From Aureimonas sp. Leaf427 (GTDB lineage: Bacteria; Pseudomonadota; Alphaproteobacteria; Rhizobiales; Rhizobiaceae), in assembly GCF_001425485.1 (NCBI RefSeq), contig NZ_LMQW01000001.1:533016-597015 (forward strand): a stretch of DNA of 64,000 bases, in the 5' to 3' direction. Shown here piece after piece: positions 10,688 to 53,178 of the stretch (positions are counted from its first letter, which is position 1; every line of letters starts with the position of its first letter). The position numbers and the translations under genes are program-made. The notes under the pieces were generated by a model, which was not told the origin of the DNA, did no database searches, and saw nothing but the letters and a program-made list of their open reading frames with translations.

Positions 10688-10696
10688 CAGCAAAAC

Positions 10697-32150: not shown

Positions 32151-32791
<641 letters not shown>

Positions 32792-32795
<4 letters not shown>

Positions 32796-35243: not shown

Positions 35244-35252
35244 GGGGCGAGT

Positions 35253-36965: not shown

Positions 36966-37053
36966 GGCATCTCTCTTACGGTGGAAGGGCGAGGGCCGCA
37001 CGAGCTTCGAAAAAGCCGCGCGACACCCGTCGCCCTCTGCTGCAACGCGGCGG

Positions 37054-37082
37054 ATCGGACCGCAAAGCGCCGGGTTTGTCAA
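37054..37082 (-). promoter_or_regulatory. Candidate ureC promoter
   Basis: On the minus strand TTGACA (37082-37077) and TCCGAT (37059-37054) are 17 bases apart, about 90 bases before the ureC ATG. The -35 lies in the 11-mer CGCTTTGACAA, which recurs upstream of ureJ. The -10 is weak. Confidence 0.45.
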
Positions 37083-37169
37083 AGCGATAAGAAGGCCCAT
37101 CTGAAGAGAATGACCATGGATATCGCGATCGGCCCCGCGGGAGGCCGGACCGACACAGGAGAGCCTCCC

Positions 37170-37619
37170 TTGCGCCACCGATCCTCCACCGCCGCGCGCG
37201 CCGCGGCGACGCTTCTCGTCCTCGCCGGCTTCTCGGCCGAGGCCGGCGCCCAGGCCTTCGGCCCCGGCCCGCCCGGCATCGCGGTCGGCAGTTCCATGTC
37301 GGGCAAGCGCATCGTCGGCGCGCCGCGCGCGACCGGCGGCCCGCGCATTCCCAATGCCGACGTCTTCGGCGACGAAGTGGAGGAGCGCCGGTTCGGCCGG
37401 GACTACGACGACAGCTATCTGCGGCCGGAAATCCGCACCTTCGAGCGCGATTCCTCCACCGAGCGGCGCGCCATCGAGGGCCGCTCCTCGCTCGGCGGCG
37501 TCGGTGCCGGCGTCTTCGCGCGCGACGGCGCGACGGGGATCGGACGAAGCGCGGTGACGCGCCCCTCGTCCAGCGGGCGGGCGAAGATCGTCTTCACCAA
37601 GCCGCGGACGACACGCTGA
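37170..37619 (+). CDS. Hypothetical secreted protein
   Basis: TTG 37170 gives 149 residues with a signal peptide ([24 protein letters not shown]) and an Arg/Gly/Ser-rich mature part containing [22 protein letters not shown]. The TTG is preceded by AGGAGA at a suitable distance. An in-frame ATG at 37110 would add 20 polar residues before the signal, which fits export less well. No family is recognised. It is divergent from ureC and interrupts the urease gene order. Confidence 0.65.
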
Positions 37620-37754
37620 CCTGCAGGCGGTAAAAGGGGGAACGTCTCGCGCGTGCTGGGAGTTGGATGAGACGGGAGGCGGAGCTTGAGGCTTTGCTTC
37701 GATCCATTTTTACGAAGGGCCGGCATCCAACGTTCGGCCGAAGGGACGATCACC

Positions 37755-38447
37755 ATGAGCCGGACCATCGCAACCCTCGCACTTTCCCTCGCCCTCGCGG
37801 CCAGCCCGGCCTTCGCCCAATCGTCGGGCGGCGGCGGCGGCTCCTCGGGCGGTAGTTCCAGCACGGGCGGCGGCGCGTCGGGCTCGGGTTCGTCCTCGGG
37901 CATTTCCAGCGGCTCCAGCGCCGTGGGCGGCTCGGGCAGCGGCCTCGGCGGAACCTCCACGACGGGCTCCTCGGCCACCACGCTCCCGCTGTCGCCCTCC
38001 ACGTCCGGCGTGTCGTCGGGCTCCGGCGTCACGTCCGGCACCGGGATTTCAGGCTCGGGCAGCGTCGGCACGGGCTCGGCGGGCGTCGGCTCGACCGGCA
38101 TCGGCGGGGCCGGAAGCTCCAATATCGGCATCTCGACCAGCGCCCCGGCGACGATCGGCGGCACGGTCGGCTCCTCCGACACCCAGGCGCGCGCCAACGA
38201 AGGCTCCAGCGGCATCAATTCCACGAATGTCGACGGGATCGCGCGAAGCGGCAATCCCGGCGCCGCGACGACGCTCGGCGGGGCCGGCTCGGCGACGACC
38301 GGCAGCGCCTCGCCCGGCGGCCTTTCCGGCGCCGGAACGGAAGCCGAGTACAACATTCCCCGGCCGCGCATCGCCGTCGACGTGCAAGGCATCCGCAATG
38401 CGCTGGGCGCGGATTCGTCGGCCACGCCTAAGCGCAACGGCGACTGA
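37755..38447 (+). CDS. Gly/Ser-rich low-complexity secreted protein
   Basis: The gene encodes 230 residues. A clear signal peptide (TIATLALSLALAASPAFA) is followed by about 180 residues made almost wholly of Gly, Ser, Thr and Ala, with repeats such as GSGSVGTGSAGVGSTGIGG. The tail is more ordinary (EYNIPRPRIAVDVQGIRNALG). There is no enzyme motif. Such compositions occur in flexible surface or matrix proteins, but no function can be claimed. It is followed by a strong terminator. Confidence 0.75.
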   Translation: MSRTIATLALSLALAASPAFAQSSGGGGGSSGGSSSTGGGASGSGSSSGISSGSSAVGGSGSGLGGTSTTGSSATTLPLSPSTSGVSSGSGVTSGTGISGSGSVGTGSAGVGSTGIGGAGSSNIGISTSAPATIGGTVGSSDTQARANEGSSGINSTNVDGIARSGNPGAATTLGGAGSATTGSASPGGLSGAGTEAEYNIPRPRIAVDVQGIRNALGADSSATPKRNGD

Positions 38448-38477
38448 GGCTTTAGCCTCTCACGGCCAACCCAGACG

Positions 38478-38503
38478 AAGTCCGGGCCATCGGCCCGGGC
38501 TTT
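38478..38503. terminator. Rho-independent terminator candidate between convergent genes
   Basis: Stem AAGTCCGGGCC / GGCCCGGGCTT (one T-G wobble) around loop ATC, followed by T. It lies between the Gly/Ser-rich gene and the cyclase-family gene and could serve both strands. Confidence 0.6.
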
Positions 38504-38542
38504 ACGCTTTGATGGAGAGGCGTTGCGAGCGCCCGGCCTTTC

Positions 38543-39379
38543 TCAGGTCAGCGCGAAGACGCGCGCCGGGCCACCCGTCCCACCCCGATGCTTCGGCGCT
38601 CCGACGACGATCGTCGCGCCCTTGGCAGGCAGGGCGTCGAGGCCCGCGAGGCATTCCAGTCCCCAGCGCCCGGACGGCAGCCAGGTCTTGTGGCCGATGA
38701 AGTCGGGCGAGGCGCCGAAGTCGAGCGAGAGCGTATCGACGCCGATGCCGACCGCCGTCGAGTCCTCGATCAGCATGGTCAGGGCCTCGACGTGGAAGCC
38801 CGGGAAATGCATGACCTTGGCCTCGTCCGCATTGCGGAACTTCGGCGTCGCCACATGCTGCGACCAGCCCGATTTCATGGCGACGCAGCAATGGGCGGGA
38901 AGCTCGCCATTCGCCGAGATCCAGGCCTTGATATCGTCCGGCGTCACCTGCGCATCGGGATTGGCGGACGCCTTTTCCCGGATGTCGATCACCGCGAGCG
39001 GAGCCATGAGCTTCTCGACCGGAATTTCCGCGACCGACAGGCCGTCGGCGCTGAAATGCAGCGGCGCGTCCATATGCGTTCCCGTGTGCTCGTCGATCGT
39101 CAGGACGAAGAGATTGAAGCCGTCCTTCTCCAGCCCGAACTTGCGCTCCATCGCAAAGCCCGGCTCGCCCGGAAAGGTCGGAAACTCGGAAGAGAGTTCA
39201 TGGGTGAGGTCCGAAATGGTCGAGACCGTCACGGGCTCCGCCGCCGGTGCGGCCGCCGCCGCCGGCCGCGCGCCCATTCCCAGAAGCCCGGCCGCCCCCA
39301 CCGCGGCGCCGAGGCCGAACAGCGAGCGCCGGCTCAGCATCGAGGCCTTGACCTCCTCCATCACGCAGGCACCGCACAT
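38543..39379 (-). CDS. Cyclase-family (kynurenine formamidase-like) exported hydrolase
   Basis: The gene encodes 278 residues of the PF04199 cyclase fold. The metal-binding motif is HTGTHMDAPLHF, with later GHKTWLPSGRWGLECLAGLDALPAKG. The N terminus has a twin-arginine signal (LSRRSLFGLGAAVGAAGLLG), preceded by 14 residues that include CGAC. Known relatives include kynurenine formamidase and isatin hydrolase; the substrate here is unknown. It sits between ureB and ureC in the same direction, 76 bases after ureB, so it may act on an amide in the same nitrogen regime; that is inferred. Confidence 0.85.
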   Translation of the reverse strand: MCGACVMEEVKASMLSRRSLFGLGAAVGAAGLLGMGARPAAAAAPAAEPVTVSTISDLTHELSSEFPTFPGEPGFAMERKFGLEKDGFNLFVLTIDEHTGTHMDAPLHFSADGLSVAEIPVEKLMAPLAVIDIREKASANPDAQVTPDDIKAWISANGELPAHCCVAMKSGWSQHVATPKFRNADEAKVMHFPGFHVEALTMLIEDSTAVGIGVDTLSLDFGASPDFIGHKTWLPSGRWGLECLAGLDALPAKGATIVVGAPKHRGGTGGPARVFALT

Positions 39380-39455
39380 GTCTCTCTCCCTTTTCCGATG
39401 ATCGTCGAGGCCGAGAAGGCCGCCGCCCGCCCCGGCGCCTTGGCTCGCGCGCCTG

Positions 39456-39761
39456 CTACAGCGCGCCCATCACCTGTCCGTTGAAACCGTAGACCTTCCG
39501 CTCGCCGCGAAAGGGCACGAGCGTGACCTCCCGCGTCTGGCCGGGCTCGAAGCGCACGGCGGTGCCGGCGGCGATGTCCAGCCGGTGGCCGCGCGCGGCG
39601 GCGCGGTCGAAGGTCAGCGCCGGGTTGGTTTCGGCGAAGTGGTAGTGCGAGCCGACCTGCACCGGCCGGTCGCCCGTGTTGGAGACTTCGAGCACGAGGG
39701 TGAGAAGACCCTCGTTCAGGACGATCTCGCCCGCTTTCGTGATCACTTCGCCGGGGATCAT
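39456..39761 (-). CDS. ureB: Urease beta subunit
   Basis: The gene encodes 101 residues with the UreB pattern: MIPGEVI at the start, [47 protein letters not shown] and [10 protein letters not shown]. It is a structural subunit surrounding UreC. The start is 5 bases after the ureJ stop, indicating coupling. Confidence 0.97.
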
Positions 39762-39766
39762 GGAGC

Positions 39767-40363
39767 TCAGCCCGCCATGAGGGCGAGGCCGGCGATCGCC
39801 GTGCCGGCGCCGAGAATGCGCGCCAGCGCCCCGCCGACCGAGCGACCGAAGCCGGCGCCCGAGGAAAGCGCCAGACCGATGCCGATGCCGGCGAGATGCA
39901 GGAGCGCGGTCGCGGCGAGGAAGCCCGCGGCGAAGGAAAGCGCGCCGGCCGAGCCGAGTTCGCTCGCATGCGCATAGCCGTGGAAGAGCGCGAAGGCCCC
40001 GACGAGCGCGGCGCCGGCGGCGACCGGCAGGCGCACGGCGGCCGCGACGAGAAGGCCGAGAACGACGACGGAGGCGGCGATCATCGGCTCGACGAAGGGC
40101 AGCGAAAGCCCGGTCTGGCCGAGGAGGAAGCCGAGCGACATGACGCCGACGAAGGCGGCCGGAACGGCATAGGTGCCGCGCCCGCCGATCTGCGAGGCCC
40201 AGAGGCCGACCGCGACCATGGCGAGGATGTGATCGGCGCCGAAGAGCGGATGCGACAGGCCCGCCATCACGGACCCGTGCTCGGCGGGATCGAGATGGGC
40301 GAAGGCGGGCGCCGATGCGGCAAGAAGCGTCACGGCGGCAAGGGAAAGGCGTCTGATCATCAT
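39767..40363 (-). CDS. ureJ: HupE/UreJ nickel-transport-like membrane protein
   Basis: The gene encodes 198 residues. A signal peptide ([18 protein letters not shown]) is followed by a His-containing loop ([27 protein letters not shown]) and about six membrane helices, including [12 protein letters not shown]. These His/Asp motifs are typical of HupE/UreJ proteins, thought to bring nickel into the cell for urease or hydrogenase. With urease around it, nickel supply to urease is the likely role. Two start ATGs are adjacent (40363 and 40360). Confidence 0.93.
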
Positions 40364-40677
40364 GTCCTCGTTTCGAAAGACGGCGGCGTCCCGGATGGGG
40401 TCACGCCGGCGGCGGGGAATCGCTTCCGTTCGGAGCAGCCTTCTCCCGCGACGCTGCTTATAGTGAAAGCCCCGTTCGCCCTTGTCAAAGCGCTTAACGG
40501 CCGGGAAGGGCTGCGGCGAACTTATGGCGCGATGTCTCGAACTCGACATGCCGGGGAAACAATCCGGACACCCTGATCTGGCATCGTCTTCTCACGAACC
40601 CGAAACCGCCGCGAATCATCCGACCCACGACGGCCCCGGCCTTACGAAGACGTCCCACGGACACCACGGGCACTACG
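40364..40677. other. Divergent intergenic region, ureJ / small secreted protein
   Basis: About 314 bases. It carries the ureJ promoter candidate at 40460-40488. The part from 40550 to 40677 is AT-richer and likely holds the promoter of the plus-strand small gene. No RNA gene or further coding region is evident. Confidence 0.5.
40460..40488 (-). promoter_or_regulatory. Candidate ureJ-ureB promoter
   Basis: On the minus strand TTGACA (40488-40483) is followed after 17 bases by CACTAT (40465-40460). The -35 is embedded in CGCTTTGACAA, the same 11-mer found before ureC. Confidence 0.5.
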
Positions 40678-40920
40678 ATGTCACAGACGAAGCTCGCCCT
40701 TCTCGCCTCCTCGATCGCCGCAACGCTGGTGCTGGCCTTGGCCGCGCCCGCCGGCACGGCGACGCCGAGCCTGATCCGGCACGTCCATCTCAACGGCGTC
40801 TCCGGCCCCGCCTATTACTCCGTCGTCGAAGGCGGCTATCGCCCGGTCGTGGTTCGCGCGGCGAGCGCCGAACCGAAGACCGAGCAGGTCGCCGAGATCA
40901 CGCCCGCCGCCGCCGACTGA
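40678..40920 (+). CDS. Small hypothetical secreted protein
   Basis: The gene encodes 80 residues. The N-terminal third is a signal peptide (LALLASSIAATLVLALAAPAGTA). The mature part is short, with HVHLNGVSGPAYYSVVEGGYRPVVV and an acidic/Ala C terminus. No family is recognised. It lies on the opposite strand between ureA and ureJ and its stop is 52 bases from the ureA stop. Confidence 0.6.
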   Translation: MSQTKLALLASSIAATLVLALAAPAGTATPSLIRHVHLNGVSGPAYYSVVEGGYRPVVVRAASAEPKTEQVAEITPAAAD

Positions 40921-40972
40921 CGGACGTTCACGCCGGAAGACGCCCGCCAGGAAGCCGAGGCGCCCCGAAAGA

Positions 40973-41275
40973 TCAGCGGATCGGCTCGTGCACCGTCACG
41001 AGCTTGGTGCCGTCCGGAAACGTCGCCTCGACCTGGATGTCGTGGATCATCTCGGCAATGCCCTCCATCACCTGACCACGCCCGACGACATGCGCCCCCG
41101 CCTCCATGAGGTCGGCCACCGAGCGCCCGTCCCGCGCTCCTTCCACGACGAAATCGGTGATGAGGGCGATCGCCTCGGGATGGTTCAGCTTCACGCCGCG
41201 CGCGAGGCGCTTGCGCGCGACCTCCGCGGCCATGGCGACGAGAAGCTTGTCCTTTTCGCGCGGCGTCAACTGCAT
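40973..41275 (-). CDS. ureA: Urease gamma subunit
   Basis: The gene encodes 100 residues with the UreA pattern: [36 protein letters not shown], the [11 protein letters not shown] segment and the C-terminal [18 protein letters not shown]. It is a structural subunit of the urease trimer. It follows ureD by 40 bases on the minus strand but is cut off from ureB and ureJ by an opposing small gene. Confidence 0.97.
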
Positions 41276-41315
41276 GAACGGGCCTTTCGGATCGTGAATC
41301 TGAACCAGTGATCTC

Positions 41316-42164
41316 TCAGGTCGACCATATGCGGGGAAGCGGGCCGTCCGCCAGAGCGGCGAGCACGGGAACGAGCCGGCGTCGCAGCGCGAGGCCGCCG
41401 GATGCGACCAGCCGGACGAGGATCAGCCCGTCCACGAGGCTCGCCCCGCCGGCATCGCCGACGATCGCGCGCAAGGCGGCCAGCCGCGCTTCGGGCGCAG
41501 CGCCCTGGAAGAGAATGGTGGAAAAGGCGCGCGCCCCGCAGAGCGAAGCCGCCCGGGCCGCGACCTGCGACACGGGCCCGGAGAGCCGCAGATCGTCGGC
41601 GAAGACGAGCCGCCCCTCCCGCCGGATGCGCCAGCGGTCGCGGATCTCGCCCGTCACCACGCTCTCGCCCATCGTCTCGCGTCCCAGAATCACGCTTTCG
41701 CAGAGGATCACGGTGCTCGACGCCGCCATGTCCACCTCCAGCCGCCGCCTGAGCGCCCCGCCGTCGAAGAGGATCGTTTCCTGCGGTACGAAGAGAAACC
41801 GGGCATCGGCGCCGACATGCGCCTGCGTTTCCACCGAAGCCGCATCGCCGAGCGTGCGATAGACCCGCTCGCAGGCCTGCGTCGTCACGGTCAGGCTGGA
41901 GGCCTCGGCGAGCGTGAAGCCCTGCGACAGCCGATCGCCGCCCGCGAGCCCCCCGCAGGAATTGATGAGGATCGCCTCCGCGCCGAGACCCTCGTGAACC
42001 GTCGGAAAGCGCAGCTTCAAGGCTCCCGCCTGATGCAGCCGCCGCAGCCGCGTGCGCCCCGCCACCACCGCCACCTCCGCCCGCGCCGCGCCGACGGCAC
42101 GCTGCATGCGAATGGGGGCGGCGTTGGCCGGAGAGACGGCGTCCGACGAGAGCGGGGCGTTCAC
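41316..42164 (-). CDS. ureD: Urease accessory protein UreD
   Basis: The gene encodes 282 residues. Family motifs are [16 protein letters not shown]-like (here [19 protein letters not shown]), [34 protein letters not shown] and the [18 protein letters not shown] strand. UreD forms the scaffold of the UreD-UreF-UreG nickel-insertion complex. It is the first gene of the urease set, about 290 bases after urtE. Confidence 0.95.
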
Positions 42165-42456: not shown

Positions 42457-43152
42457 TCACACCGTAAGATGCTTGCGCACCTCGGGATCGTCCAGCCCTT
42501 CCGCCGGGCCGTCGAAGACGATCTCGCCGCGGTCCATGATGTAGACCTTGTCCGCCAGCTCGCGGCAGAAATCGAGATACTGCTCGACGAGCAGGATCGC
42601 GAGCCCCGTGTTCTCCTTCAGATAGCGGATCGCCCGGCCGATATCCTTGATGATCGACGGCTGGATGCCCTCCGTCGGCTCGTCCAGGACGAGAAGGCGC
42701 GGCCGCGTCACCAGAGCCCGGCCGATCGCCAGCTGCTGCTGCTGCCCGCCCGACAAATCGCCCCCGCGCCGCCCCAGCATCGTCTTCAGCACCGGAAACA
42801 TCTCGAACACATGAGGCGGGATCGTCCGATCGCTGCGCTTCAGCGGCGAAAACCCCGTCTGCAGATTCTCCTTCACCGTCAGAAGCGGGAACACCTCCCG
42901 CCCCTGCGGCACGAAGCCGATGCCCTTCCGCGCCCGCGCATACGGCGCGTCCCGCCCCAGAACCTCGCCCCCCAGCGAAATCGTCCCCGACCGGATCGGC
43001 TGCTGCCCCACGACCGCCCGCATCAGGCTGGTCTTCCCCACCCCGTTCCGCCCGAGAACGCAGGTGATCTGAGCCTCCTTCGCCTCGATCGAAACACCCC
43101 GCAACGCCTGCGCGGCCCCGTAGTAGAGATCGACATTGGACACGGTCAGCAT
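42457..43152 (-). CDS. urtE: Urea ABC transporter ATP-binding protein UrtE
   Basis: The gene encodes 231 residues: a LivF-like ATPase. Walker A GRNGVGKTS, Q-loop VPQGREVFP, signature DLSGGQQQQLAIGRAL and Walker B LLVLDEPTEGIQPS are intact, and DLYYGAAQALRGVS at the N terminus is typical of UrtE. With UrtD it powers high-affinity urea uptake. It is separated from urtD by a 210-base spacer full of hairpins. Confidence 0.95.
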   Translation of the reverse strand: MLTVSNVDLYYGAAQALRGVSIEAKEAQITCVLGRNGVGKTSLMRAVVGQQPIRSGTISLGGEVLGRDAPYARARKGIGFVPQGREVFPLLTVKENLQTGFSPLKRSDRTIPPHVFEMFPVLKTMLGRRGGDLSGGQQQQLAIGRALVTRPRLLVLDEPTEGIQPSIIKDIGRAIRYLKENTGLAILLVEQYLDFCRELADKVYIMDRGEIVFDGPAEGLDDPEVRKHLTV

Positions 43153-43362: not shown

Positions 43363-44229
43363 CTACCGTCCGAGGTAGACCTCGACGACGCGGGGGTCGG
43401 CGCTGACGGCGTCGAGGGTGCCTTCGGCGAGGACCGAGCCTTCGTGGAGGCAGGTGACCTTGACGTCGAGGGCCCGGACGAAGTGCATGTCGTGTTCGAC
43501 GACGACGACGGAGCGGGTTCGGGCGATGTCCTTGAGGAGGCGCGCGGTTTCCTCGGTTTCGGCGTCGGTCATGCCGGCGACGGGTTCGTCGACCAGCAAG
43601 AGCTCGGGGTCCTGGGCGAGGAGCATGCCGATTTCGAGCCACTGCTTCTGGCCGTGGGAGAGGTCGGCGGCGAGGCGGTCGCGATGCTGGCCGAGGCGGG
43701 TGAGGCCGAAGATCTCGTCGATCTTGTCGGCCTCGCCTCTGGTGTTCCGATGAAGGAGCGCGGAGAAGACGCCGCGCGAGCCGGCCATGGCGAGGCGCAG
43801 GTTGTCCTCCACGGTGTGGCTGTCGAAGACGGTCGGCTTCTGGAACTTGCGACCGATGCCCATGGAGGCGATCGCGGCCTCGTCGTGGCGGGTGAGATCG
43901 ACGTCGCCGCGGAAGTAGACCTCGCCGGTGTCGGGGCGGGTCTTGCCGGTGATGATGTCCATCATCGTCGTCTTGCCGGCCCCGTTCGGCCCGATGATCG
44001 CGCGCATCTCGCCCTTCTGGATGACGAGGGAGAGGCCGTTGATCGCCTTGAACCCGTCGAAGGCCTTGGTGACGCCGTCGAGATAGAGGAGGGTTTCGCG
44101 GCGGGCGCTGCCTTCGGCCTCGATGCGGGCGCGTTCGAGGGCGCGCTGGGTGGCGTAGGGATGCGGCGAGACGAAGGGCTCGGCGCGTTCGGGAACGTAG
44201 GCGGCGGTGAGTTCGGCCATGTCGGTCAC
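43363..44229 (-). CDS. urtD: Urea ABC transporter ATP-binding protein UrtD
   Basis: The gene encodes 288 residues: a LivG-like ATPase with Walker A GPNGAGKTT, GRKFQKPTVFDSHTVEDNL (characteristic of UrtD), signature DLSHGQKQWLEIGMLL and Walker B LLLVDEPVAGM. It has about 45 extra N-terminal residues before the domain. The start overlaps the urtC stop as ATGA. Confidence 0.95.
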   Translation of the reverse strand: MTDMAELTAAYVPERAEPFVSPHPYATQRALERARIEAEGSARRETLLYLDGVTKAFDGFKAINGLSLVIQKGEMRAIIGPNGAGKTTMMDIITGKTRPDTGEVYFRGDVDLTRHDEAAIASMGIGRKFQKPTVFDSHTVEDNLRLAMAGSRGVFSALLHRNTRGEADKIDEIFGLTRLGQHRDRLAADLSHGQKQWLEIGMLLAQDPELLLVDEPVAGMTDAETEETARLLKDIARTRSVVVVEHDMHFVRALDVKVTCLHEGSVLAEGTLDAVSADPRVVEVYLGR

Positions 44230-45398
44230 TCCGCGGCGCTGGGGGCGGCATCGCCCGGCATGGTGGAGGCCGGCGAGGTGCCGATCCCGCGCTCGGCCTG
44301 CCGGGCTTTCAGGCGCTCGCGGCCGGAGGTCCAGCCGTGATCGATCGTGCCGACGATGCCGCGCGGCAGGAAGATCGTGACGAAGACGAAGAGCCCGCCG
44401 AGGACGAAGAGCCAGTAGTCGGGCGCGGCGGCGGTGAAGACGCTCTTGCCGGTGTTGACCAGCAGCGCGCCGAGGATGGGGCCGAGGATCGTGCCGCGCC
44501 CGCCCACCGCCGTCCAGACGACGACCTCGATCGAGTTCACCGGCGCGAACTCGCCGGGATTGATGATGCCGACCTGCGGCACGTAGAGCGCGCCGGCGAT
44601 GCCCGCCATGACGGCCGAAAGCGTGAAGGCGAAGAGCTTCACATGGTCGGCGCGCCAGCCGAGAAAGCGCGTGCGGCTTTCCGCGTCGCGCACCGCGATC
44701 ATCAGCTTGCCGAGCTTGGAGCGCGTGACGACGCCGGTGACGACGACGCCGAGCGCCAGAGCGAGGCAGGAGGCGACGAAGAGGCCGAGGCGGGTCGAAG
44801 GCGCCTGCAGGGAATAGCCGAGCAGTTCCTTGAAGTCGGTGAGGCCGTTATTGCCGCCGAAGCCCATGTCGTTCTGGAAGAAGGCGAGGAGCAGCGCGTA
44901 GGTCAGCGCCTGCGTGATGATCGACAGATAGACGCCGGTGACGCGGGAGCGGAAGGCGAAGTAGCCGAAGACGAAGGCGAGGAGGCCGGGCACGAGGACG
45001 ACCATCAGCGCCGCGAACCAGAACTGGTCGAAGCCCTGCCAGAACCAGGGCAGTTCCTTCCAGTTGAGGAAGACCATGAAGTCGGGCAGCTCGGCATTGC
45101 CGTACTGACCCCGGCTGCCGATCTGGCGCATGAGATACATGCCCATCGCATAGCCGCCGAGCGCGAAGAAGGCGCCGTGGCCGAGCGAGAGGATGCCGAC
45201 ATAGCCCCAGACGAGATCGAGCGCGAGCGCCAGGAGCGCGTAAGTGAGATACTTGCCGATCAGCGGCACGGCATAGGGCGGGATGTGGAAGAGGCTGGTC
45301 TCGGGCAGGCCGGCGGCCAGCGGCACGAGGATGGCGGCAGCGAGCAGCGCGGCCACGACGAACCAGACGCGGGGCCCGAGAAACTTGGCGAAGAGCAC
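44226..45398 (-). CDS. urtC: Urea ABC transporter permease UrtC
   Basis: The gene encodes 390 residues with about ten hydrophobic segments. It belongs to the LivM-like permease family: LDLVWGYVGILSLGHGAFFALGGYAMGMYLMR, FGYFAFRSRVTGVYLSIITQALTYALLLAFFQNDMGFGGNNGLTDF and the EAA-like RFLGWRADHVKLFAF. The GHG and GGNNGLT motifs are those of UrtC. It follows urtB by 56 bases. Confidence 0.95.
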   Translation of the reverse strand: MLFAKFLGPRVWFVVAALLAAAILVPLAAGLPETSLFHIPPYAVPLIGKYLTYALLALALDLVWGYVGILSLGHGAFFALGGYAMGMYLMRQIGSRGQYGNAELPDFMVFLNWKELPWFWQGFDQFWFAALMVVLVPGLLAFVFGYFAFRSRVTGVYLSIITQALTYALLLAFFQNDMGFGGNNGLTDFKELLGYSLQAPSTRLGLFVASCLALALGVVVTGVVTRSKLGKLMIAVRDAESRTRFLGWRADHVKLFAFTLSAVMAGIAGALYVPQVGIINPGEFAPVNSIEVVVWTAVGGRGTILGPILGALLVNTGKSVFTAAAPDYWLFVLGGLFVFVTIFLPRGIVGTIDHGWTSGRERLKARQAERGIGTSPASTMPGDAAPSAAE

Positions 45399-45454: not shown

Positions 45455-47077
45455 TCATGCGTCCACGAACCTCCCCTTCTGGGCGAAGAGACCGCGCGGG
45501 CGCTTCTGGATGAAGAGGATGATGAGGACGAGCACCACGATCTTGCCGACGACGGCGCCGGCATAGGGTTCGAGGAACTTGTTGAGGATGCCGAGCGACA
45601 TGGCGCCGACGAGCGTGCCCCAGAGGTTTCCGACGCCGCCGAAGACCACGACCATGAAACTGTCGATGATGTAGCCCTGCCCGAGATCGGGCGAGACGTT
45701 GTCGATCTGGCTGAGCGCGACGCCGGCGATGCCCGCGATGCCGGACCCGAGCGCGAAGGTCATGGCGTCGACGAAGGGAGTGCGGATGCCCATGGCGGAG
45801 GCCATCTTCCGGTTCTGCGTGACGGCGCGCATCTTGAGGCCGGCCGAGGTGCGGTTCAGCGCGAAGAGAAGAGCTGCGAAGACGGCGAGCGCGAAGAGGA
45901 TGATCCACATCCGGTTCCAGGTGACGGCCATCAGCCCGACCTGGAAGGAGCCCGACATCCAGGACGGGTTGCCGACCTCCTGGTTCGTCGCGCCGAAGTA
46001 GAGGCGCACGGCCTGCTGCAGGATCAGCGAGACGCCGTAGGTCGCGAGCAGCGTCTCCAGCGGGCGCCCGTAGAGGAAGCGGATGAGGCAGCGCTCCATC
46101 AGGAGCCCGACGCTTCCGGCGACGAGGAAGGCGAGCGGCAGCGCGATGGCGAGCGAGTAGTCGAAGAGGAAGGGCGCATGGCTGCGGATCGCCTCCTGCA
46201 CGACGAAGGTCGTGTAGGCGCCGAGCATGATCATCTCGCCATGGGCCATGTTGATGACGCCCATCACGCCGAAGGTGATGGCAAGACCGATGGCGGCCAG
46301 CAGCAGGACCGAGCCGAGCGAGATGCCGTACCAGATGTTCTGCGCCTGGCTCCAGGCCGCGATCCGGCCCTCGATCGCCTCGGCGGCGCGGGTCGCGGTC
46401 GCGGTCAGCGTCGCGTCGCCGCCGGCGCGGATGCCGGAGAGGACGGCGAGCGCCTGACGGTCGCCCCGGGCCGAGACGGTCTCGATGGCGGCGAGCTTCT
46501 CCTCGGTGGAGAGGTCGGATTTCAAGACGGCGGCCGCGCGCGCCTCGGCGAGCTTGGCCTTGATGTCGGGCACCGTCTCCTCGGCGAGCGCGGCGTCGAG
46601 GATGCCGACCTGCTCGGCGCTGGCGGAGGTGAAGAGGTTCAGCGCGGCGGAGCGGCGCACGCCCTCGTCCGGCGAGCGCAGCGTCAGGGAGCCCATGGCA
46701 TCGGCGACGACGTTGCGGGTGGAGTTCTTGACCTTGACCTTTTCGAGGTCGCCCTTGGGAGCGGTGCCGGCCGGCTCGCCGGTCAGCGCGTCGAAGATCG
46801 AGAGCGGATCGCCGCCCCGGGCGATCACGACGGAATTGTCGGCCTTGCGATAGTAGAGCTCGCCCGCGGCCAGCGCGTTCAGCGCGTTCGCGACCTGAAG
46901 GTCGCCGGTCGCGGCGAGCTTCTTCACGGTCGCCTCGGTCTCGGAAAAGCTCCGCTTGCCCGCGAACTCCGCGATGATGGCGGCGGCCCCGCTCTCCTGC
47001 GCCGCGGCCGGACGGCCGGGCAGCGAGAGGAGGACGAGGGCGAGAAGGAGGAGGAGCCGCTTGACGGTCAAGGTCAT
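45455..47077 (-). CDS. urtB: Urea ABC transporter permease UrtB
   Basis: The gene encodes 540 residues. Unusually for LivH-like permeases but normal for UrtB, a signal peptide (LLLLLALVLLSLPGRPAAA) and about 200 extracytoplasmic residues precede the membrane domain (from about WYGISLGSVLLLAAIGLAITFGVMGVINMAHGEMIMLGAYTTFVVQ). Later segments include RAVTQNRKMASAMGI and GFVDA-type C terminus. It forms the urea channel with UrtC. The ATG at 47077 gives the exported N terminus. Confidence 0.95.
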   Translation of the reverse strand: MTLTVKRLLLLLALVLLSLPGRPAAAQESGAAAIIAEFAGKRSFSETEATVKKLAATGDLQVANALNALAAGELYYRKADNSVVIARGGDPLSIFDALTGEPAGTAPKGDLEKVKVKNSTRNVVADAMGSLTLRSPDEGVRRSAALNLFTSASAEQVGILDAALAEETVPDIKAKLAEARAAAVLKSDLSTEEKLAAIETVSARGDRQALAVLSGIRAGGDATLTATATRAAEAIEGRIAAWSQAQNIWYGISLGSVLLLAAIGLAITFGVMGVINMAHGEMIMLGAYTTFVVQEAIRSHAPFLFDYSLAIALPLAFLVAGSVGLLMERCLIRFLYGRPLETLLATYGVSLILQQAVRLYFGATNQEVGNPSWMSGSFQVGLMAVTWNRMWIILFALAVFAALLFALNRTSAGLKMRAVTQNRKMASAMGIRTPFVDAMTFALGSGIAGIAGVALSQIDNVSPDLGQGYIIDSFMVVVFGGVGNLWGTLVGAMSLGILNKFLEPYAGAVVGKIVVLVLIILFIQKRPRGLFAQKGRFVDA

Positions 47078-47278
47078 GGAAAAGCGCCGATCCGCGAGGG
47101 AGTGCCGCCCGAGGGAGGCATCTTTGGAAAAACGGGGCGACGCCGAAGAAAGCGCCGCCCCGAAGGGACGATCCGGAGGTTTGGGAGCCCGGACGGATCG
47201 CCTGGGAGAAGGGGTGGTTCGGCCGTTGAAGAGACCGGGATTTGGAAGTCGGCGCCTTACGGCGCCCGCAAGCTTCAT

Positions 47279-47314: not shown

Positions 47315-48634
47315 TTACTTCGCCGCGACCGCGCCCGCGCCGCCGCACTTGCCGGTGGCGGTGTTGAAGTTGCCGCAGGACATCGGAGCGCGCCAGTCGG
47401 AGATGAGGGGCTTGGATTCCGGCAGGTAGTCGGACCACTCGTCGCCGAGCACGAGGCCGGGCGTCTCGTAGACGACCTCGAACTGGCCGTCTTCCTGGAT
47501 CTCGCCGATGAGAACGGGCTTGGTGATGTGGTGGTTGGCGCCCATGGAGGAGAGGCCGCCCGTGAGGTTCGGCACGGAGACGCCGACCATCGCGTCGATG
47601 ACCTTGTCGCTATCGGTCGTGCCGGCGGCCTCGACGGCCTTCACCCACATCTGGAAGCCGATGTAATGGGCCTCCATCGGGTCGTTGGTCACGCGCTTGT
47701 CGTTCTTGGTGAAGGCCTTCCACTTGGCGATGAACTCGGCATTGGCCGGGTTGTCGACGGACTGGAAGTAGTTCCAGGCGGCGAGGTGGCCGACGAGCGG
47801 CTTGGTGTCGATGCCGGCGAGTTCCTCTTCGCCCACCGAGAAGGCCATGACCGGAATGTCCTCGGCCGTGATGCCCTGGTTGGCGAGTTCCTTGTAGAAG
47901 GGCACGTTCGCATCGCCGTTGACGGTCGAGACGACGCCGGTCTTCTTGCCCGAGGAGCCGAACTCCTTGATGGCCGCGACCTCGGTCTGCCAGTCGGAGA
48001 AGCCGAAGGGCGTGTAGTTGACCTTGATGTCCTCGGCGGCGACGCCCTTGGACTTCAGGTAGGCTTCGAGGATCTTGTTGGTCGTGCGGGGATAGACGTA
48101 GTCGGTGCCTTCCAGCACCCAACGCTCGACGCCTTCCTCCATCATGTAGTCGACGGCCGGGATCGCCTGCTGGTTCGGGGCGGCGCCGGTGTAGAAGATG
48201 TTGCGCGAGGATTCCTCGCCCTCGTACTGCACGGGATAGAACACGACGGTGTTCAGTTCCTCGGCAACCGGCAGGATGGATTTGCGCGAGACCGAGGTCC
48301 AGCAGCAGAACACGGCCGCGACCTTCTGCGCGGAGACCAGATCACGCATCTTCTCGGCGAAGAGCGGCCAGTCGGAAGCGGGATCGACGACGACGGCTTC
48401 GAGCGGCCGGCCGAGGAGACCGCCCTTGGCGTTCTGCTCGTCGATCATCATGAGCATCGCGTCCTTCAGCGTCGTCTCCGAGATCGCCATCGTGCCCGAC
48501 AGCGAATGGAGGACGCCGACCTTGATCGGCTCGCCCGAGGGCTTGGTCTGCGCCATCGTGCCCGTGACGGAAGCCGAGATCATCGCGCCGGCGGCGAGAC
48601 CCTTCAGCCAGTGCTTGCCCGAGAAGAAACCCAT
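47315..48634 (-). CDS. urtA: Urea ABC transporter substrate-binding protein UrtA
   Basis: The gene encodes 439 residues. Signal peptide (KGLAAGAMISASVTGTMAQ) and a periplasmic type I binding fold with GVLHSLSGTMAISETTLKDAMLMMIDEQNAKGG, CCWTSVSRKSILPVAEEL, FYPVQYEGEESSRNIFYTGAAPNQQ and SWQTE-like FSDWQTEVAAIKEF. These are diagnostic of UrtA over the related amide-binding FmdD and amino-acid receptors. It is the first gene of the urt operon and divergent from the hybrid kinase gene. Confidence 0.96.
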   Translation of the reverse strand: MGFFSGKHWLKGLAAGAMISASVTGTMAQTKPSGEPIKVGVLHSLSGTMAISETTLKDAMLMMIDEQNAKGGLLGRPLEAVVVDPASDWPLFAEKMRDLVSAQKVAAVFCCWTSVSRKSILPVAEELNTVVFYPVQYEGEESSRNIFYTGAAPNQQAIPAVDYMMEEGVERWVLEGTDYVYPRTTNKILEAYLKSKGVAAEDIKVNYTPFGFSDWQTEVAAIKEFGSSGKKTGVVSTVNGDANVPFYKELANQGITAEDIPVMAFSVGEEELAGIDTKPLVGHLAAWNYFQSVDNPANAEFIAKWKAFTKNDKRVTNDPMEAHYIGFQMWVKAVEAAGTTDSDKVIDAMVGVSVPNLTGGLSSMGANHHITKPVLIGEIQEDGQFEVVYETPGLVLGDEWSDYLPESKPLISDWRAPMSCGNFNTATGKCGGAGAVAAK

Positions 48635-48722
48635 ATGTCGAAACCCCCTGCCGTGATCCGGTTGGCGGCGCCATGCTGCACCGCCGTAGCCGGACCTTCG
48701 GCCAGAGGGTTGACGAGTGGTA

Positions 48723-48738
48723 TACGTCGATTGACGTA
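48723..48738. promoter_or_regulatory. Inverted repeat between urtA and the hybrid kinase gene
   Basis: A perfect TACGTC-GATT-GACGTA repeat is centred in the 235-base divergent spacer (48635-48869). It is well placed to control both urtA and the kinase operon and is a candidate site for the LuxR-type response regulator encoded at 52246. Confidence 0.55.
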
Positions 48739-48869
48739 GCTGACCCGAAGCTTGCCGGAAAAGCTCCGGCGAGCGGCGCGTGCCCCGGCCCTTCCTCGCG
48801 CACCGGGACGGTCGCGCCGCACGGAATGATTCTTGCTTCTTTCCGGGAAGGATAGGCAAGAAAGGTCCC

Positions 48870-51800
48870 ATGGCAGGACGGCAGCGCATCCTTCCCGTTC
48901 GGCGGGACTACAATCGCTGGGTCGCGAACCAGACGCTGGAGGACTACGCCCTCCGCTTCACCGCCAAGAGCGCCCGCCGCTGGACCGCCCAGCGCGTCTC
49001 GCAGACCGCGATCGGCGCGATCTCCTTCCTGGCGCTGGAGGCGGTGGGCGGCGCGATCACGCTGTCCTTCGGCTTCGTCAATGCCGCGTGCGCCATCGTC
49101 GTCGTCTCCGCGATCCTGCTCCTCACCGGCATTCCGATCAGCCGCTATGCCGCCAAATACGGCGTCGACATCGATCTCCTCACGCGCGGCGCGGGCTTCG
49201 GCTATATCGGCTCCACCGTCACCTCGCTGATCTATGCGAGCTTCACCTTCATCCTCTTCGCGGTGGAGGCCTCGATCATGACGGCCGCGCTGGAGCTGGC
49301 CTTCGGCGTGCCGCTCTGGCTCGGCTACATCGTCTCCGCGCTCGCCGTGATCCCGCTCGTCACCCACGGCGTCTCCTGGATCAGCCGCTTCCAGCTCCTG
49401 ACGCAGCCGCTCTGGATCGTCCTGAACGTCCTGCCGGTCGGCTTCATCCTCTGGAAGGACGCGGGCTCGCTCGCCGCCTGGACGGCCTTTCCCGGGCTGG
49501 AAGCCGCCGGTCTCGGCCTGCCCGACGGGTTCGACCTCCTGAAGTTCGGCGCGGCCTCCGCCGTCATCCTCGCGCTCATGCCGCAGATCGGGGAGCAGGT
49601 GGACATCCTGCGCTTCCTGCCCGCGCGCAAGGGAAAGCCCGAAGCCTCCTGGCGCTTCGCCCTCTTCGCCGCCGGCCCCGGCTGGATCGTGCTCGGTGCG
49701 CCGAAACTCTTCTTCGGCTCCTTCCTGGCGGTGCTCGCGCTGCGCGCGGGCCTTTCGCCGGAACACGCGGTCGAGCCCGCCTATATGTACGACGTCGCCT
49801 TCTCCTACGTTCTGCCCTCGCCGGGCGCGGCGGCCGTGCTCACCGCCGCCTTCGTCGTGGTAAGCCAGCTGAAGATCAACGTGATGAACGCCTATGCGGG
49901 CTCGCTCGCCTGGTCGAACTTCTTCTCCCGCCTGACGCACAGCCATCCCGGCCGCGTCGTCTGGCTGGTCTTCAACGTCGCGATCGCGCTTCTCCTGATG
50001 GAGCTCGGCATCTACGGCGCGCTGGAGGTGACGTTCGGCCTCTTCGCCAATGTGGCCGTCGCCTGGCTCGGCACGCTCGTCGCCGATCTCGCCATCAACA
50101 AGCCGCTCGGCCTCTCCCCGCCCGGCATCGAATTCAAGCGCGCTCATCTCTACGACGTGAACCCGGTCGGGCTCGGCTCGATGGGGCTCGCCGCCCTCGT
50201 CTCGCTCACCGCCTTTTCCGGCGCCTTCGGCGCGGCGGCGGCCGCGCTCTCGCCCTTCCTGGCGCTGGCCGTCGCGCTCCTCGCCGCGCCCGCCATCGCC
50301 TATGCCACCGGTGGCCGCTACTACCTCGCCCGCCGCCCCCGCGCCGAATGGGCGAACCGGATCGAGATCGACTGCTCCATCTGCGAGCACGCCTTCGAGC
50401 CGGAGGACATGGCCTATTGCCCCGCCTATGCCGGGCCCATCTGCTCGCTCTGCTGCTCGCTGGATGCGCGCTGCGGCGATCTCTGCAAGCCCCATGCGCG
50501 GCTGGAGGCGCAGGTCGCCGGCGCCGCACACGCCATCCTGCCCGCGCGCGCCGCCCGGCGCATCGACAGCCGGCTCGGCCACTATCTCGGCAGCTTCGCG
50601 CTTCTCGCCGGCATCATCTCCATCGTCCTCGGCCTCATCTACTATCAGGCGATCACGGCCAGCCCGAACGACCGCGAGATCATCGCCAAGGCGCTCTGGG
50701 CGGCCTTCTTCATCCTCCTCATCGTCGCCGGCATCGGCACCTGGTTCGTGACGCTCGCACGCGAGAGCCGGCGCGTGGCGCAGGAGGAATCGGCGCGCCA
50801 GACGGTGCTCCTCCTGAAGGAGATCGAGGCGCACCGGCGCACGGACGCCGCGCTCCAGAAGGCCAAGGAGACCGCCGAAGCCGCCTCGCTGGCGAAAAGC
50901 CGCTACGTCGTCGGCATGAGCCACGAGCTGCGCACGCCGCTGAACGCGGTCCTCGGCTATGCCCAGCTTCTGGAACGCGACGAGGCGATCCCTCTTGAGC
51001 GCCGGCGCGGCGTGAAGGTCATCCGCCGCTCGGCCGAGCATCTCTCCGGCCTGATCGACGGGCTTCTCGACATTTCGCGCATCGAGACCGGCCGGCTCCA
51101 GCTGCAGCGCGGCGAGGTTCGGCTCGCCGACTTCCTCAGCCAGATCGTCGACATGTTCCGTCTCCAGGCCGAGGCGCGGGGCCTTGCCTTCACCTATGTC
51201 CGGCCGGACGTCCTGCCCGAGACCGTGCGCACCGACGAGAAGCGCCTGCGCCAGATCCTGATCAACCTCCTCTCCAACGCCGTGAAATACACCGAGACCG
51301 GCACGGTCGGGCTGGAGGTGAGCTATCGCAGCCAGATCGCGACGCTCGCCGTCACCGACACCGGACCCGGCATCGCGCCGGACGAGATCGGCCGCATCTT
51401 CGATCCGTTCGAGCGCGGCTCGGCGACGCTCGGCGCCACGTCCGGCCTCGGCCTCGGCCTCACCATCACGCGCCTTCTCGCCAATCTCATGGGCGGCGAC
51501 GTCAACGTGCGCTCGGTGCCCGGCGAGGGCAGCCGCTTCGAGGTCCGCGTCATGCTCTCCTCCGTCGCCGGCCCCGCCAAGCCGCGCCCCGGCACGGCGC
51601 TGCCGCGCGGCTACGAGGGACGGCGGCGCACGATCTTCGTCGTCGATGACGACGAGGTGCATCGCGAACTGATGCTGGAGGTCCTGCGCCCGCTCGGCTT
51701 CATCGTCCTCACCGCCGCAGACGGCCCTTCCGCGCTCGACCTCGTCTCCGGCCTTGCACCCGACCTCTTCCTCCTCGACATACAGATGCCCGGCATGAAC

Positions 51801-52259
51801 GGCTGGACGCTGGCGCGCGCCTTGCGCGAAGCCGGGCAGGACGGGGCGATCCTGATGCTGTCGGCGACGCTCGGCGAACCGCCCGTCTCCGCCGTCGGCG
51901 AGCCACCGGCCCATCCCGCCGCGCAGGGCGCGCTGTCGAAGCCCGTGGACCTTCGCGAGCTCGTCACGCGGCTCGGCGATCTCCTGGCGCTCGACTGGAC
52001 GCAGGAGCCGCAGGCCGCAGAGGAGGCCGAGCCCGCCGCCCTGTCCGGTCCCGTCGCGCCGCCCCCGCCGGCCGATCTCGCCGAGCTTCTGCGCCTCGGC
52101 CGCATCGGCTATGTCCGCGGCATCGAGGTGAAGCTCGCAGCCCTCGAGGCGGACGCGGCGCTGGCGCCCTTCGTGGAGGCCATGCGCGTCCACGTCCGGG
52201 GCTTCGATCTCAAGCGCTACGTGGCGGAGCTGGAGGCCATGGCGAATGTCCGATCCTGA
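48870..52259 (+). CDS. NCS1-type permease / hybrid histidine kinase / receiver fusion
   Basis: The gene encodes 1129 residues. Residues about 1-490 are an NCS1-like (cytosine/purine/hydantoin) permease of about twelve helices (RDYNRWVANQTLEDYALRFT, FGYIGSTVTSLIYASFTFILF, KINVMNAYAGSLAWSNFFSR). Residues 502-542 are Cys-rich (C502, C505, C517, C525, C528, C529, C535, C539, H542). Two more helices follow (about 570-625), then a HisKA domain with H685 (GMSHELRTPLNAVLGY), an HATPase (ILINLLSNAVKYTE, DTGPGIAP, GLGLGLTI) and a receiver with D970 (LLDIQMPGMNG). The likely role is sensing a transported or bound N-compound and phosphorylating the next gene's product. ATG 48870 is preferred over an upstream frame extension. 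Ligand unknown. Confidence 0.92.
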   Translation: MAGRQRILPVRRDYNRWVANQTLEDYALRFTAKSARRWTAQRVSQTAIGAISFLALEAVGGAITLSFGFVNAACAIVVVSAILLLTGIPISRYAAKYGVDIDLLTRGAGFGYIGSTVTSLIYASFTFILFAVEASIMTAALELAFGVPLWLGYIVSALAVIPLVTHGVSWISRFQLLTQPLWIVLNVLPVGFILWKDAGSLAAWTAFPGLEAAGLGLPDGFDLLKFGAASAVILALMPQIGEQVDILRFLPARKGKPEASWRFALFAAGPGWIVLGAPKLFFGSFLAVLALRAGLSPEHAVEPAYMYDVAFSYVLPSPGAAAVLTAAFVVVSQLKINVMNAYAGSLAWSNFFSRLTHSHPGRVVWLVFNVAIALLLMELGIYGALEVTFGLFANVAVAWLGTLVADLAINKPLGLSPPGIEFKRAHLYDVNPVGLGSMGLAALVSLTAFSGAFGAAAAALSPFLALAVALLAAPAIAYATGGRYYLARRPRAEWANRIEIDCSICEHAFEPEDMAYCPAYAGPICSLCCSLDARCGDLCKPHARLEAQVAGAAHAILPARAARRIDSRLGHYLGSFALLAGIISIVLGLIYYQAITASPNDREIIAKALWAAFFILLIVAGIGTWFVTLARESRRVAQEESARQTVLLLKEIEAHRRTDAALQKAKETAEAASLAKSRYVVGMSHELRTPLNAVLGYAQLLERDEAIPLERRRGVKVIRRSAEHLSGLIDGLLDISRIETGRLQLQRGEVRLADFLSQIVDMFRLQAEARGLAFTYVRPDVLPETVRTDEKRLRQILINLLSNAVKYTETGTVGLEVSYRSQIATLAVTDTGPGIAPDEIGRIFDPFERGSATLGATSGLGLGLTITRLLANLMGGDVNVRSVPGEGSRFEVRVMLSSVAGPAKPRPGTALPRGYEGRRRTIFVVDDDEVHRELMLEVLRPLGFIVLTAADGPSALDLVSGLAPDLFLLDIQMPGMNGWTLARALREAGQDGAILMLSATLGEPPVSAVGEPPAHPAAQGALSKPVDLRELVTRLGDLLALDWTQEPQAAEEAEPAALSGPVAPPPPADLAELLRLGRIGYVRGIEVKLAALEADAALAPFVEAMRVHVRGFDLKRYVAELEAMANVRS

Positions 52260-53178
52260 CCGTCCCCTTCGCATGGCGCGCGACATCGTCCTCGTGGTCG
52301 AGGACAGCGCCGATACGCTGCGCATGCTGACCGAGGCGCTGGAGGGCGCGGGCGCGACCGTGCTCGTCGCGCTCGAAGGCGCGCAGGCGCTCTCCATCGC
52401 CGCCGAGATCACGCCCGACATCGTGCTGATGGACGCGATGATGCCCGGCATGGACGGCTTCGAGACGACGCGGCGGCTGAAGGCCGATGCGGGCCTCGCC
52501 CATGTGCCCGTCATCTTCATGACAGGCCTCTCCGAGACCGAGCATGTGGTGAAGGGCCTGGAGGCCGGCGGCGTCGACTACGTGACGAAGCCCATCGTGC
52601 CCGACGAGCTTCTCGCCCGCATCCGCGTCCATCTCGCCAATGCGCGGGCCGCCCAGAGCGCCAGAGCCGCCCTCGACACGGCCGGCCGCTTCCTCCTCGC
52701 CGCCGACCGTGACGGCCATGTCCTCTGGTCGACGCCCCAGGCGATCCGCCTGCTCAACGCCGCGCTCGCCACGACCGAGGAGAGCTTCGTCCTGCCGCAA
52801 TCCCTGATCGCCTTCCTGCGGTCCGGCGCCGATGCCGGTCCCGCGCCGGCCTCCGCGACGATCGAGGGCGGCGAGGGCCGCCGCCTCGTCTTCTCCTTCC
52901 TCGGCAAGGTCGGCGAGAACGAGCACCTCTTCCGCCTGACCACCGAGGAAGAGGGCGGCGAGACGGCGAAGCTGCGGCTGAAATTCCAGCTGACGGCCCG
53001 AGAGGCCGAGGTCCTCCTCTGGATCGCCCGCGGCAAGCCCAACCGCGACATCGCCGAGATCCTGTCGCTGAGCCCCCGCACGGTGAACAAGCACCTCGAA
53101 ACGGTCTTCTCCAAGCTCGGCGTCGAGAACCGCGCCTCGGCCGCGATCCTCGCGATCCGGACGCTGGGGGAGGCGTGA
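52246..53178 (+). CDS. Response regulator with LuxR-type output domain
   Basis: The gene encodes 310 residues. The receiver domain has VLVVEDSADTLRML, the phospho-acceptor in IVLMDAMMPGMDGFE and the conserved Lys in YVTKPI. A middle region of about 80 residues (RFLLAADRDGHVLWSTPQAIRLLN) resembles a PAS-like sensor only loosely. The C-terminal LuxR helix-turn-helix reads FQLTAREAEVLLWIARGKPNRDIAEILSLSPRTVNKHLETVFSKLGVENR. It overlaps the hybrid kinase by 14 bases, so it is its probable partner. The nearest targets are urtA and the kinase operon. Confidence 0.94.
   Translation: MSDPDRPLRMARDIVLVVEDSADTLRMLTEALEGAGATVLVALEGAQALSIAAEITPDIVLMDAMMPGMDGFETTRRLKADAGLAHVPVIFMTGLSETEHVVKGLEAGGVDYVTKPIVPDELLARIRVHLANARAAQSARAALDTAGRFLLAADRDGHVLWSTPQAIRLLNAALATTEESFVLPQSLIAFLRSGADAGPAPASATIEGGEGRRLVFSFLGKVGENEHLFRLTTEEEGGETAKLRLKFQLTAREAEVLLWIARGKPNRDIAEILSLSPRTVNKHLETVFSKLGVENRASAAILAIRTLGEA

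Follow-up and report, generated by a model that had tools for sequence, protein, structure and literature searches.

A hybrid sensor kinase with an NCS1-related transporter domain beside the urea importer genes of Aureimonas sp. Leaf427

The stretch analysed here (64,000 nucleotides of Aureimonas sp. Leaf427, contig NZ_LMQW01000001.1, forward-strand positions 533,016 to 597,015; hereafter the window) encodes a hybrid sensor kinase whose N-terminal part is predicted to be a divergent NCS1-related transporter domain. The fused frame beside the urt genes, noticed earlier in a reading of the sequence without database searches (the original prediction), is confirmed and beyond chance, and it represents a real, conserved and new variant of transporter-kinase fusion. 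We consider it likely that this membrane kinase is an NCS1-related sensor, of urea here and of short amides in many relatives, which controls the urt or fmd genes; that urea is the bound ligand is suggested by the gene context. The unbroken frame of 1129 residues proved exact (ATG 48870, stop codon 52257-52259, plus strand), and the proposed order of domains (transporter-like domain, Cys cluster, two helices, HisKA, HATPase, receiver) likewise holds, as do the overlap with a LuxR response regulator, which amounts to 14 nt, and the divergent orientation to urtA, with urtABCDE and the urease genes on the minus strand. The kinase and its regulator comprise:

48870..52259, plus strand: hybrid sensor kinase with NCS1-related transporter domain, 1129 aa
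48870..50330, plus strand: transporter-like domain, residues ~1-487, LeuT/NCS1 fold in the predicted model
50373..50486, plus strand: eight-cysteine cluster, residues 502-539, C-x2-C-x11-C-x7-C-x2-CC-x5-C-x3-C
50574..50765, plus strand: two further hydrophobic helices, residues ~569-632, leading into a long helix (predicted model)
50895..51554, plus strand: HisKA (phospho-acceptor H685) and HATPase_c, residues 676-895 (Pfam)
51633..51974, plus strand: receiver domain, residues 922-1035 (D970, K1024; Pfam)
52246..53178, plus strand: LuxR/NarL-type response regulator (REC and GerE), 310 aa, starting 14 nt before the kinase end

Pfam places HisKA at residues 676-741, HATPase_c at 788-895 and Response_reg at 922-1035, and these domains together with H685, D970 and K1024, present in 85 of 85 aligned rows, identify a hybrid histidine kinase; REC plus a GerE helix-turn-helix likewise identify the neighbour as a NarL/LuxR response regulator. 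The N-terminus at ATG 48870 resembles the frame starts of relatives, each of which is the codon chosen nearest that point, and an alternative upstream GTG start lies in frame at 48780.

The fusion is conserved among relatives, so that the lack of conservation named as grounds for abandoning the original prediction did not materialize. A search of 398 phylum genomes with an Acinetobacter relative matched 61 of them at E up to 0.001. All 57 matches at E < 1e-90 sit in frames of at least 894 aa, and stand-alone carriers occur among the weaker matches. Members are present in Alpha-, Beta- and Gammaproteobacteria, and at least 556 of 592 pattern-matched stretches from bacterial and archaeal genomes encode permease relatives, the best 80 of which were kept for analysis. 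An even class draw of 385 genomes yielded 27 matches: 25 with frames of at least 1124 aa, one stop-bearing partial copy and one distant stand-alone carrier. Among plasmid records, 532 of 72,556 match, 342 of them from Klebsiella. The protein is 1100-1300 aa long in 158 of the 165 loci examined together, and in the Aureimonas genome the permease domain occurs in a single copy. A deep branch (L152, L239, L246) consists of shorter kinases (874-885 aa) with formamidase beside them and without a match to UrtA. The L152 kinase has no receiver by Pfam, and fmdA at that locus adjoins a gene for an AmiS/UreI channel. The "histidine kinase, 1131" aa that the Dechloromonas genome paper tabulates, without comment on the kinase, together with a 308-aa receiver beside UrtA (PMC2907700) is very probably a family member.

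The assignment of the transporter-like domain to NCS1 carriers could not be reproduced by direct comparison. Residues 1-517 show no match in Pfam (E up to 10; PF02133 was thus not found directly), in NCBIfam (E up to 1) or among PDB sequences (E up to 10), and a PDB profile search with the alignment of the window family returned at best the ATP synthase b subunit (E 0.26). A PF02133 scan of the whole Aureimonas genome gave a lone sub-threshold match on another contig and none at the locus. As direct searches fail, the kinship was traced through intermediates and fold. Eight stand-alone carriers were aligned (7 from the phylum-genome search, 1 from the even class draw); among the six scanned with PF02133, L187, L190 and L115 pass the cut-off, L188 and L192 fall below it and L193 gives no match. 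The profile of these carriers identified CodB (1.1e-22) and Mhp1 (2.7e-12) in the PDB, and its comparison with the window family by hhalign gave 99.8% probability (E 2.5e-29). In addition, a stand-alone relative on an Acinetobacter plasmid, L118, matched L187 with E 1.1e-42 in a search among 10 sequences, of which the one from L189 is not the permease and does not belong to the eight aligned carriers. An AlphaFold model of residues 1-680 (mean predicted local distance difference test score, pLDDT, 77; predicted template modelling score, pTM, 0.73; 61 sequences) has Mhp1 (1.6e-8) and CodB as its best Foldseek matches, and Z scores of 33.0 to CodB and 27.0-30.3 to Mhp1, against 23.7 for the next family, so that the two NCS1 structures rank first on the predicted model by both measures. 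Because intermediates, profile comparison and modelled fold agree, we classify the domain as a divergent NCS1-related domain, as far as remote homology and a predicted structure can tell. Membership in SLC5 (SSF) is not indicated, there being no Pfam match at E up to 10 and SLC5 structures ranking below NCS1. Residues 478-653 also have no Pfam match, although Pfam possibly holds no STAC model, and Foldseek found nothing under E 0.001 for residues 482-680. Relative to stand-alone L187, the kinase family carries a five-residue insertion, PQIGE. In L187 itself (7949-12370), genes for a carbon-nitrogen hydrolase and for a binding protein of the Peripla_BP_5 type come after the NCS1 relative, which makes for an amide-like setting.

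The neighbours of the fusion, whose tabulation had been proposed along with the original prediction, were compared at 165 loci within a reach of ~9.5 kb, with the proteins of the window and of annotated plasmids as references. Genes of urt, urease or formamidase are in reach at 151 loci. True UrtA (at least 60.7% identity to that of the window) occurs at 91 loci, 37 of which also have urease, and formamidase FmdA at 47, 44 of these with an UrtA-like protein of 37-42% identity; urease without Urt was found at 9, an UrtA-like protein alone or with urease at 4, and none of these genes at 14. A related response regulator accompanies the kinase at 156 of the 165. Formamidase-linked urt clusters are read as amide importers in published accounts (PMC3098086, PMC13209695), and the recurring neighbours are genes for urea (urt, ure) or for formamide and acetamide (fmdA, amiE). 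As for the ligand, where urea, a purine, allantoin and hydantoin were first considered, this context favours restricting the choice to urea and short amides; urea keeps its place, while the other three are less supported, given the recurring urt, ure, fmdA and amiE and the replacement of a stacking Trp by Phe or Leu described below.

Two Klebsiella plasmids, L116 (NZ_CP100522.1, 7909-17381) and L155 (NZ_CP029442.1), illustrate the amide type: their "urea transport system" belongs to the formamidase-linked type with an UrtA-like protein (39.9-42.2% identity to UrtA of the window), and a divergent kinase with a palindrome site upstream is present. To judge from these sequences, an amide may be a better guess for the substrate of this transport system. 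The main texts of papers dealing with it (PMC5506382, PMC13060141) do not contain the term "histidine kinase". The family bears in this way on the annotation of the Klebsiella plasmid "urea transport system", which in the two plasmids compared is of the formamidase-linked, UrtA-like type.

Gene context follows the permease. On a permease tree of 111 rows (a quick search with long branches flagged, in which weak support left 34 of 108 inner branches open), 100 rows could be labelled, 53 as urea and 47 as amide, and the labels change only 6 times (5 without four long rows), compared with 33.5 times on average and never fewer than 26 in 200 shuffles. So few changes indicate that context goes with the permease and has switched repeatedly; both kinds even occur together within four genomes (G725, G584, G605, G520).

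Residue correspondences to CodB come from remote alignments judged by eye. By these, residue 129 (Phe in amide rows, Leu in most urea rows) aligns with W108 of CodB, whose Mhp1 counterpart we take to be W117. In CodB, W108 of transmembrane helix 3 is described as stacking on cytosine, and T278/T279 of transmembrane helix 8 as the Thr pair of the Na2 site (PMC9379551). The window family therefore has neither the NCS1 stacking Trp, position 129 being mostly Leu in urea rows and an aromatic Phe in amide rows, nor the Na2 hydroxyl pair, which aligns with K335/I336; we accordingly class the domain as NCS1-related rather than as a canonical NCS1 carrier. Nine residues of the aligned pocket region (T126, E133, Q239, E242, Q243, D245, K335, N337 and N340) do not vary among 47 amide and 100 urea rows, which is in line with recognition of a shared carboxamide group. 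Position 129 is Phe in 47 of 47 amide rows and Leu at all 54 loci with true UrtA only and at 32 of 37 with true UrtA and urease, and Phe is kept in 8 of 9 urease-only rows. Among 108 columns invariant in amide rows, only 129 changed in three urea clades, always to Leu (L230 counted separately), and just two columns, 326 and 273, both weak, set four or more of the six urea clades apart from the amide rows. With three changes on the tree, a paired sign test gives p 0.5-1 and is unable to reach 0.05, so that the link between Phe/Leu at residue 129 and amide or urea context is suggestive only.

The same evidence bears on the possibility of a nucleobase, allantoin or hydantoin ligand, like that of classic NCS1 carriers, with the urea genes serving downstream catabolism. 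NCS1 kinship and the modelled fold speak for it, and breakdown of purines and allantoin can end in urea. We nevertheless find it very improbable: the neighbours are urt, ure, fmdA and amiE, among which formamidase is left unexplained by purines (purine genes were not systematically searched), the stacking Trp position holds Phe or Leu, and the candidate operator introduced below sits at urtA and fmdA. No purine, allantoin or hydantoin enzyme is named in 11 annotated regions, the 165 loci not having been searched for purine genes.

The protein could also be a true transceptor, an active urea or amide permease (proton-driven or uncoupled) whose transport cycle or flux is read by the kinase, as has been argued for CbrA. 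The invariant pocket-region set from T126 to N340, shared by amide and urea rows, would fit such a function, as would the kinase-less L118 (11950-13554 of NZ_CP051209.1; 40% identity), which precedes a urease cluster. A truncated half of the Cys cluster is retained at the C-terminus of L118, which may therefore be a cut-down descendant of the fusion. CbrA is reported to import histidine (PMC7918813, PMC13022988), and since it has K196 at its Na2 site, a Lys there need not abolish transport. On the other hand, K335/I336 in place of T278/T279 makes sodium coupling unlikely, Urt already brings the substrate in, and KsAmt5 is described as a fused transporter able to bind without efficient translocation (PMC5764959). 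We consider such transport less likely than not. The direct link between uptake or sensing and regulation envisaged by the original prediction stands in part, the tie to the Urt genes being supported by position and by a conserved candidate operator.

That operator emerged from the alignment of nine promoter regions (the window and its eight nearest relatives) as a conserved block, TACGT-N6-ACGTA:

48635..48869, no strand: divergent promoter region between urtA and the kinase, 235 bp
48723..48738, no strand: palindrome TACGTCGATTGACGTA, candidate operator, 88 bp from the urtA start and 131 bp from the kinase start

Three forms were counted, the strict TACGT-N6-ACGTA, TACGY-N6-RCGTA and TACG-N8-CGTA; since a weight matrix had been scored on the sites from which it was built, we relied on pattern counts instead. 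The strict form occurs 100 times in the 3.3 Mb of the 165 loci, 73 of these within 500 bp upstream of the kinase. With the nine discovery loci left out, the same upstream interval contains the strict form at 63 of 156 loci, TACGY-N6-RCGTA at 88 and TACG-N8-CGTA at 90, and each of 12 control patterns (four changed spacers, eight other palindromes) at none. At 30 loci urtA lies more than 800 bp from the kinase; TACGY-N6-RCGTA then accompanies urtA at 21 of them, the kinase at 4 and neither gene at 5. In 7 amide loci a second site is located 73-115 bp from fmdA. The pSymB locus of Sinorhizobium meliloti 1021 (L149), which encodes an orthologue of the kinase with true UrtA and a regulator close to it, likewise has a site next to urtA. 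A loose site near the kinase or urtA is present at 126 of 164 loci, among them 84 of 91 with true UrtA, 35 of 44 with formamidase and an UrtA-like protein, 2 of 4 other UrtA-like loci and 5 of 13 without a known neighbour. In the even class draw, 16 of 24 kinase loci have the loose form (10 of 13 UrtA-like loci, with or without formamidase, and 3 of 4 without a known neighbour).

Genomes of the class draw with true UrtA and no kinase match (64, counted by hand) served as a control for the palindrome. None of the three forms occurs in any of their 64 urtA upstream regions, which span ~1 kb apiece except for three that are shortened by contig ends; completeness falls to 81% in part of these genomes, and a few may therefore hide a kinase. 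Ten separate urt loci (L362-L371) in genomes where the kinase stands beside an UrtA-like gene have no site. Three genomes have an unlinked kinase and three UrtA-like gene copies apiece, of which one carries a loose site (L353-L355) and two do not (L356-L361). The Aureimonas genome (5.43 Mb) contains two strict sites, that of the window and one on another contig. Sites with two mismatches were also considered and discarded: they number 70 per strand, as compared with 120 for a reversed control pattern, and hence carry no signal. The palindrome thus tracks the kinase-regulator two-component system and its adjacent transporter genes, and we infer that the neighbouring regulator binds it.

From these elements the following mechanism may be proposed. 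Ligand binding would most likely shift the LeuT-type bundle, and the shift would be relayed through the pair of additional helices and the long helix that leads into HisKA, so that the state of the transporter domain sets how active the hybrid kinase is. Phosphoryl groups would presumably flow from H685 to D970 and on to the response regulator (52246-53178), either through a histidine-containing phosphotransfer (HPt) protein or directly from the kinase. The regulator would then alter transcription of urtABCDE via the palindrome (48723-48738), and in relatives of the amide type that of fmdA. Activation seems the likelier direction of control.

Several observations weigh against a urea/amide sensor acting on urt and fmd. 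Gene context is unable to separate sensing of urea from sensing of its product or of nitrogen status. At nine of the 165 loci no response regulator reaches 40%, and of the 14 without a urea or amide gene in ~9.5 kb only 5 are short contigs or contig ends. Any site near the kinase or urtA is missing from 38 of 164 loci, including all urease-only loci (0/9) and those with formamidase and no UrtA (0/3), and from the unlinked urtA of G051. Sampling was uneven, 80 of the 165 loci being the best matches of one scan, and the Fisher tests of site presence by locus class ignore relatedness. In the even class draw, finally, the loose site is present at no more than 3 of the 7 loci where true UrtA adjoins the kinase, from which it follows that the high rate among true-UrtA loci comes mainly from the clade of the window. 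The urease-only loci L200, L201, L202, L230, L244, L247, L249 and L263, together with L118, lack the palindrome forms tested and may use another site.

The 9 loci uncut by contig ends and without urea or amide neighbours, as well as the eight invariant Cys residues, would agree with a general sensor (of nitrogen status, membrane energisation, or metal or redox state via the Cys cluster) that merely controls urt or fmd and carries the permease as a structural relic. A relic would hardly keep 108 of its first 560 columns invariant in 47 of 47 amide rows; the context labels follow the permease tree, and the column that has changed in the largest number of urea clades aligns with the position of substrate stacking. 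We therefore regard a general sensor as unlikely and retain the NCS1-related urea/amide sensor as the preferred interpretation.

The cysteines concerned (502, 505, 517, 525, 528, 529, 535 and 539) do not vary in any of the 85 rows treated as full-length, and hydrophobic segments follow at ~569-598 and 601-632. In the predicted model the cluster forms a small strand-hairpin-helix (block pLDDT ~63-84), which may hold a metal. Foldseek found no fold under E 0.001 for the Cys region (a RING finger appeared at E 3.2, rank 42), although a single search is no proof of a new fold. The notion of a module common to other kinases was dropped: of 27 matching genomes among 385 class genomes, 25 contain the same family and two are weak. 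A broader proposal, to which we give somewhat less than even credence, is that the family constitutes a widespread unnamed class of urea/short-amide sensors, with an NCS1-related carrier as kinase input, an operator code of its own (TACG-N8-CGTA), several amide/urea switches helped by Phe-to-Leu at 129, and the eight-Cys module as a second, metal or redox, input.

Among the open-access papers that our searches listed, none describes an NCS1-kinase fusion. A Leeds thesis of 2010 (Ma P.), cited in a review, names NCS1 transporters and sensor kinases in its title. The nearest functional parallels are the SLC5/STAC sensor kinases and KsAmt5. The former (CbrA, CrbS/MxtR, RpuS) likewise have an N-terminal LeuT-fold transporter domain on a kinase for nutrient genes (PMC13022988, PMC7918813, PMC9100948), and CbrA likewise has a Lys in the Na2 site (PMC13022988, PMC7918813). 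The protein of the window differs from them in being NCS1-related, with CodB and Mhp1 outscoring SLC5 structures, in having no PAS domain by Pfam and in the putative ligand class, urea/amide; the place of STAC in CbrA is taken here by the eight-Cys cluster and the two additional helices. KsAmt5 also uses a transporter of a nitrogen compound as the sensor of a histidine kinase, but with an Amt domain, for ammonium, in an anammox bacterium (PMC5764959). The NCS1 carriers Mhp1 and CodB (PF02133) share fold and remote homology with the window family, which has Phe/Leu at the Trp position, Lys-Ile at Na2 and a fused kinase. AmiC/AmiR provides similar amide-responsive control of amidase and transport genes, but through a soluble sensor and an antiterminator (PMC13209695). 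On one Paraburkholderia plasmid, genes annotated as substrate-binding and ANTAR proteins lie near the kinase. In flux sensing by BceS-BceAB the transporter is also the kinase input, as a separate ABC (ATP-binding cassette) transporter without fusion (PMC8534201). As for urea sensing, it was met among the listed open-access papers only for Helicobacter chemotaxis (PMC5245789). Only a few transporter families are known to drive histidine kinases, and NCS1 relatives would be one more; the kinase family also supplies a candidate sensor, regulator, DNA site and possible specificity residue for urea and small amides, so that each link from ligand to promoter can be tested.

The urea importer and urease genes of the window are arranged as follows:

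47315..48634, minus strand: urtA, urea-binding protein (NCBIfam match)
45455..47278, minus strand: urtB (TIGR03409 on residues 313-603 of the open reading frame)
44226..45398, minus strand: permease in the urtC position (BPD_transp_2)
43363..44229, minus strand: ABC ATPase in the urtD position (Pfam match)
42478..43152, minus strand: second ATPase, in the urtE position (span of the alignment to the urtD product)
32175..42059, minus strand: urease genes ureD, A, B, C, E, F, G (tblastn match spans, with other frames in between)

UrtA and UrtB both match their own NCBIfam models. The urtA open reading frame as listed extends to 48889, and a signal-peptide-like N-terminus puts its start at 48634, leaving the 235 bp that separate urtA and the kinase. 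On the other side of the locus, a MazE-like antitoxin and PIN-domain toxin pair lies just 3' of the regulator (53266-53906), and a VapC/AbrB pair is likewise close to the Methylosinus homologue L153. Shortly beyond the locus, at 55109-56602, the window encodes a formylmethanofuran-tetrahydromethanopterin formyltransferase, a C1-pathway gene.

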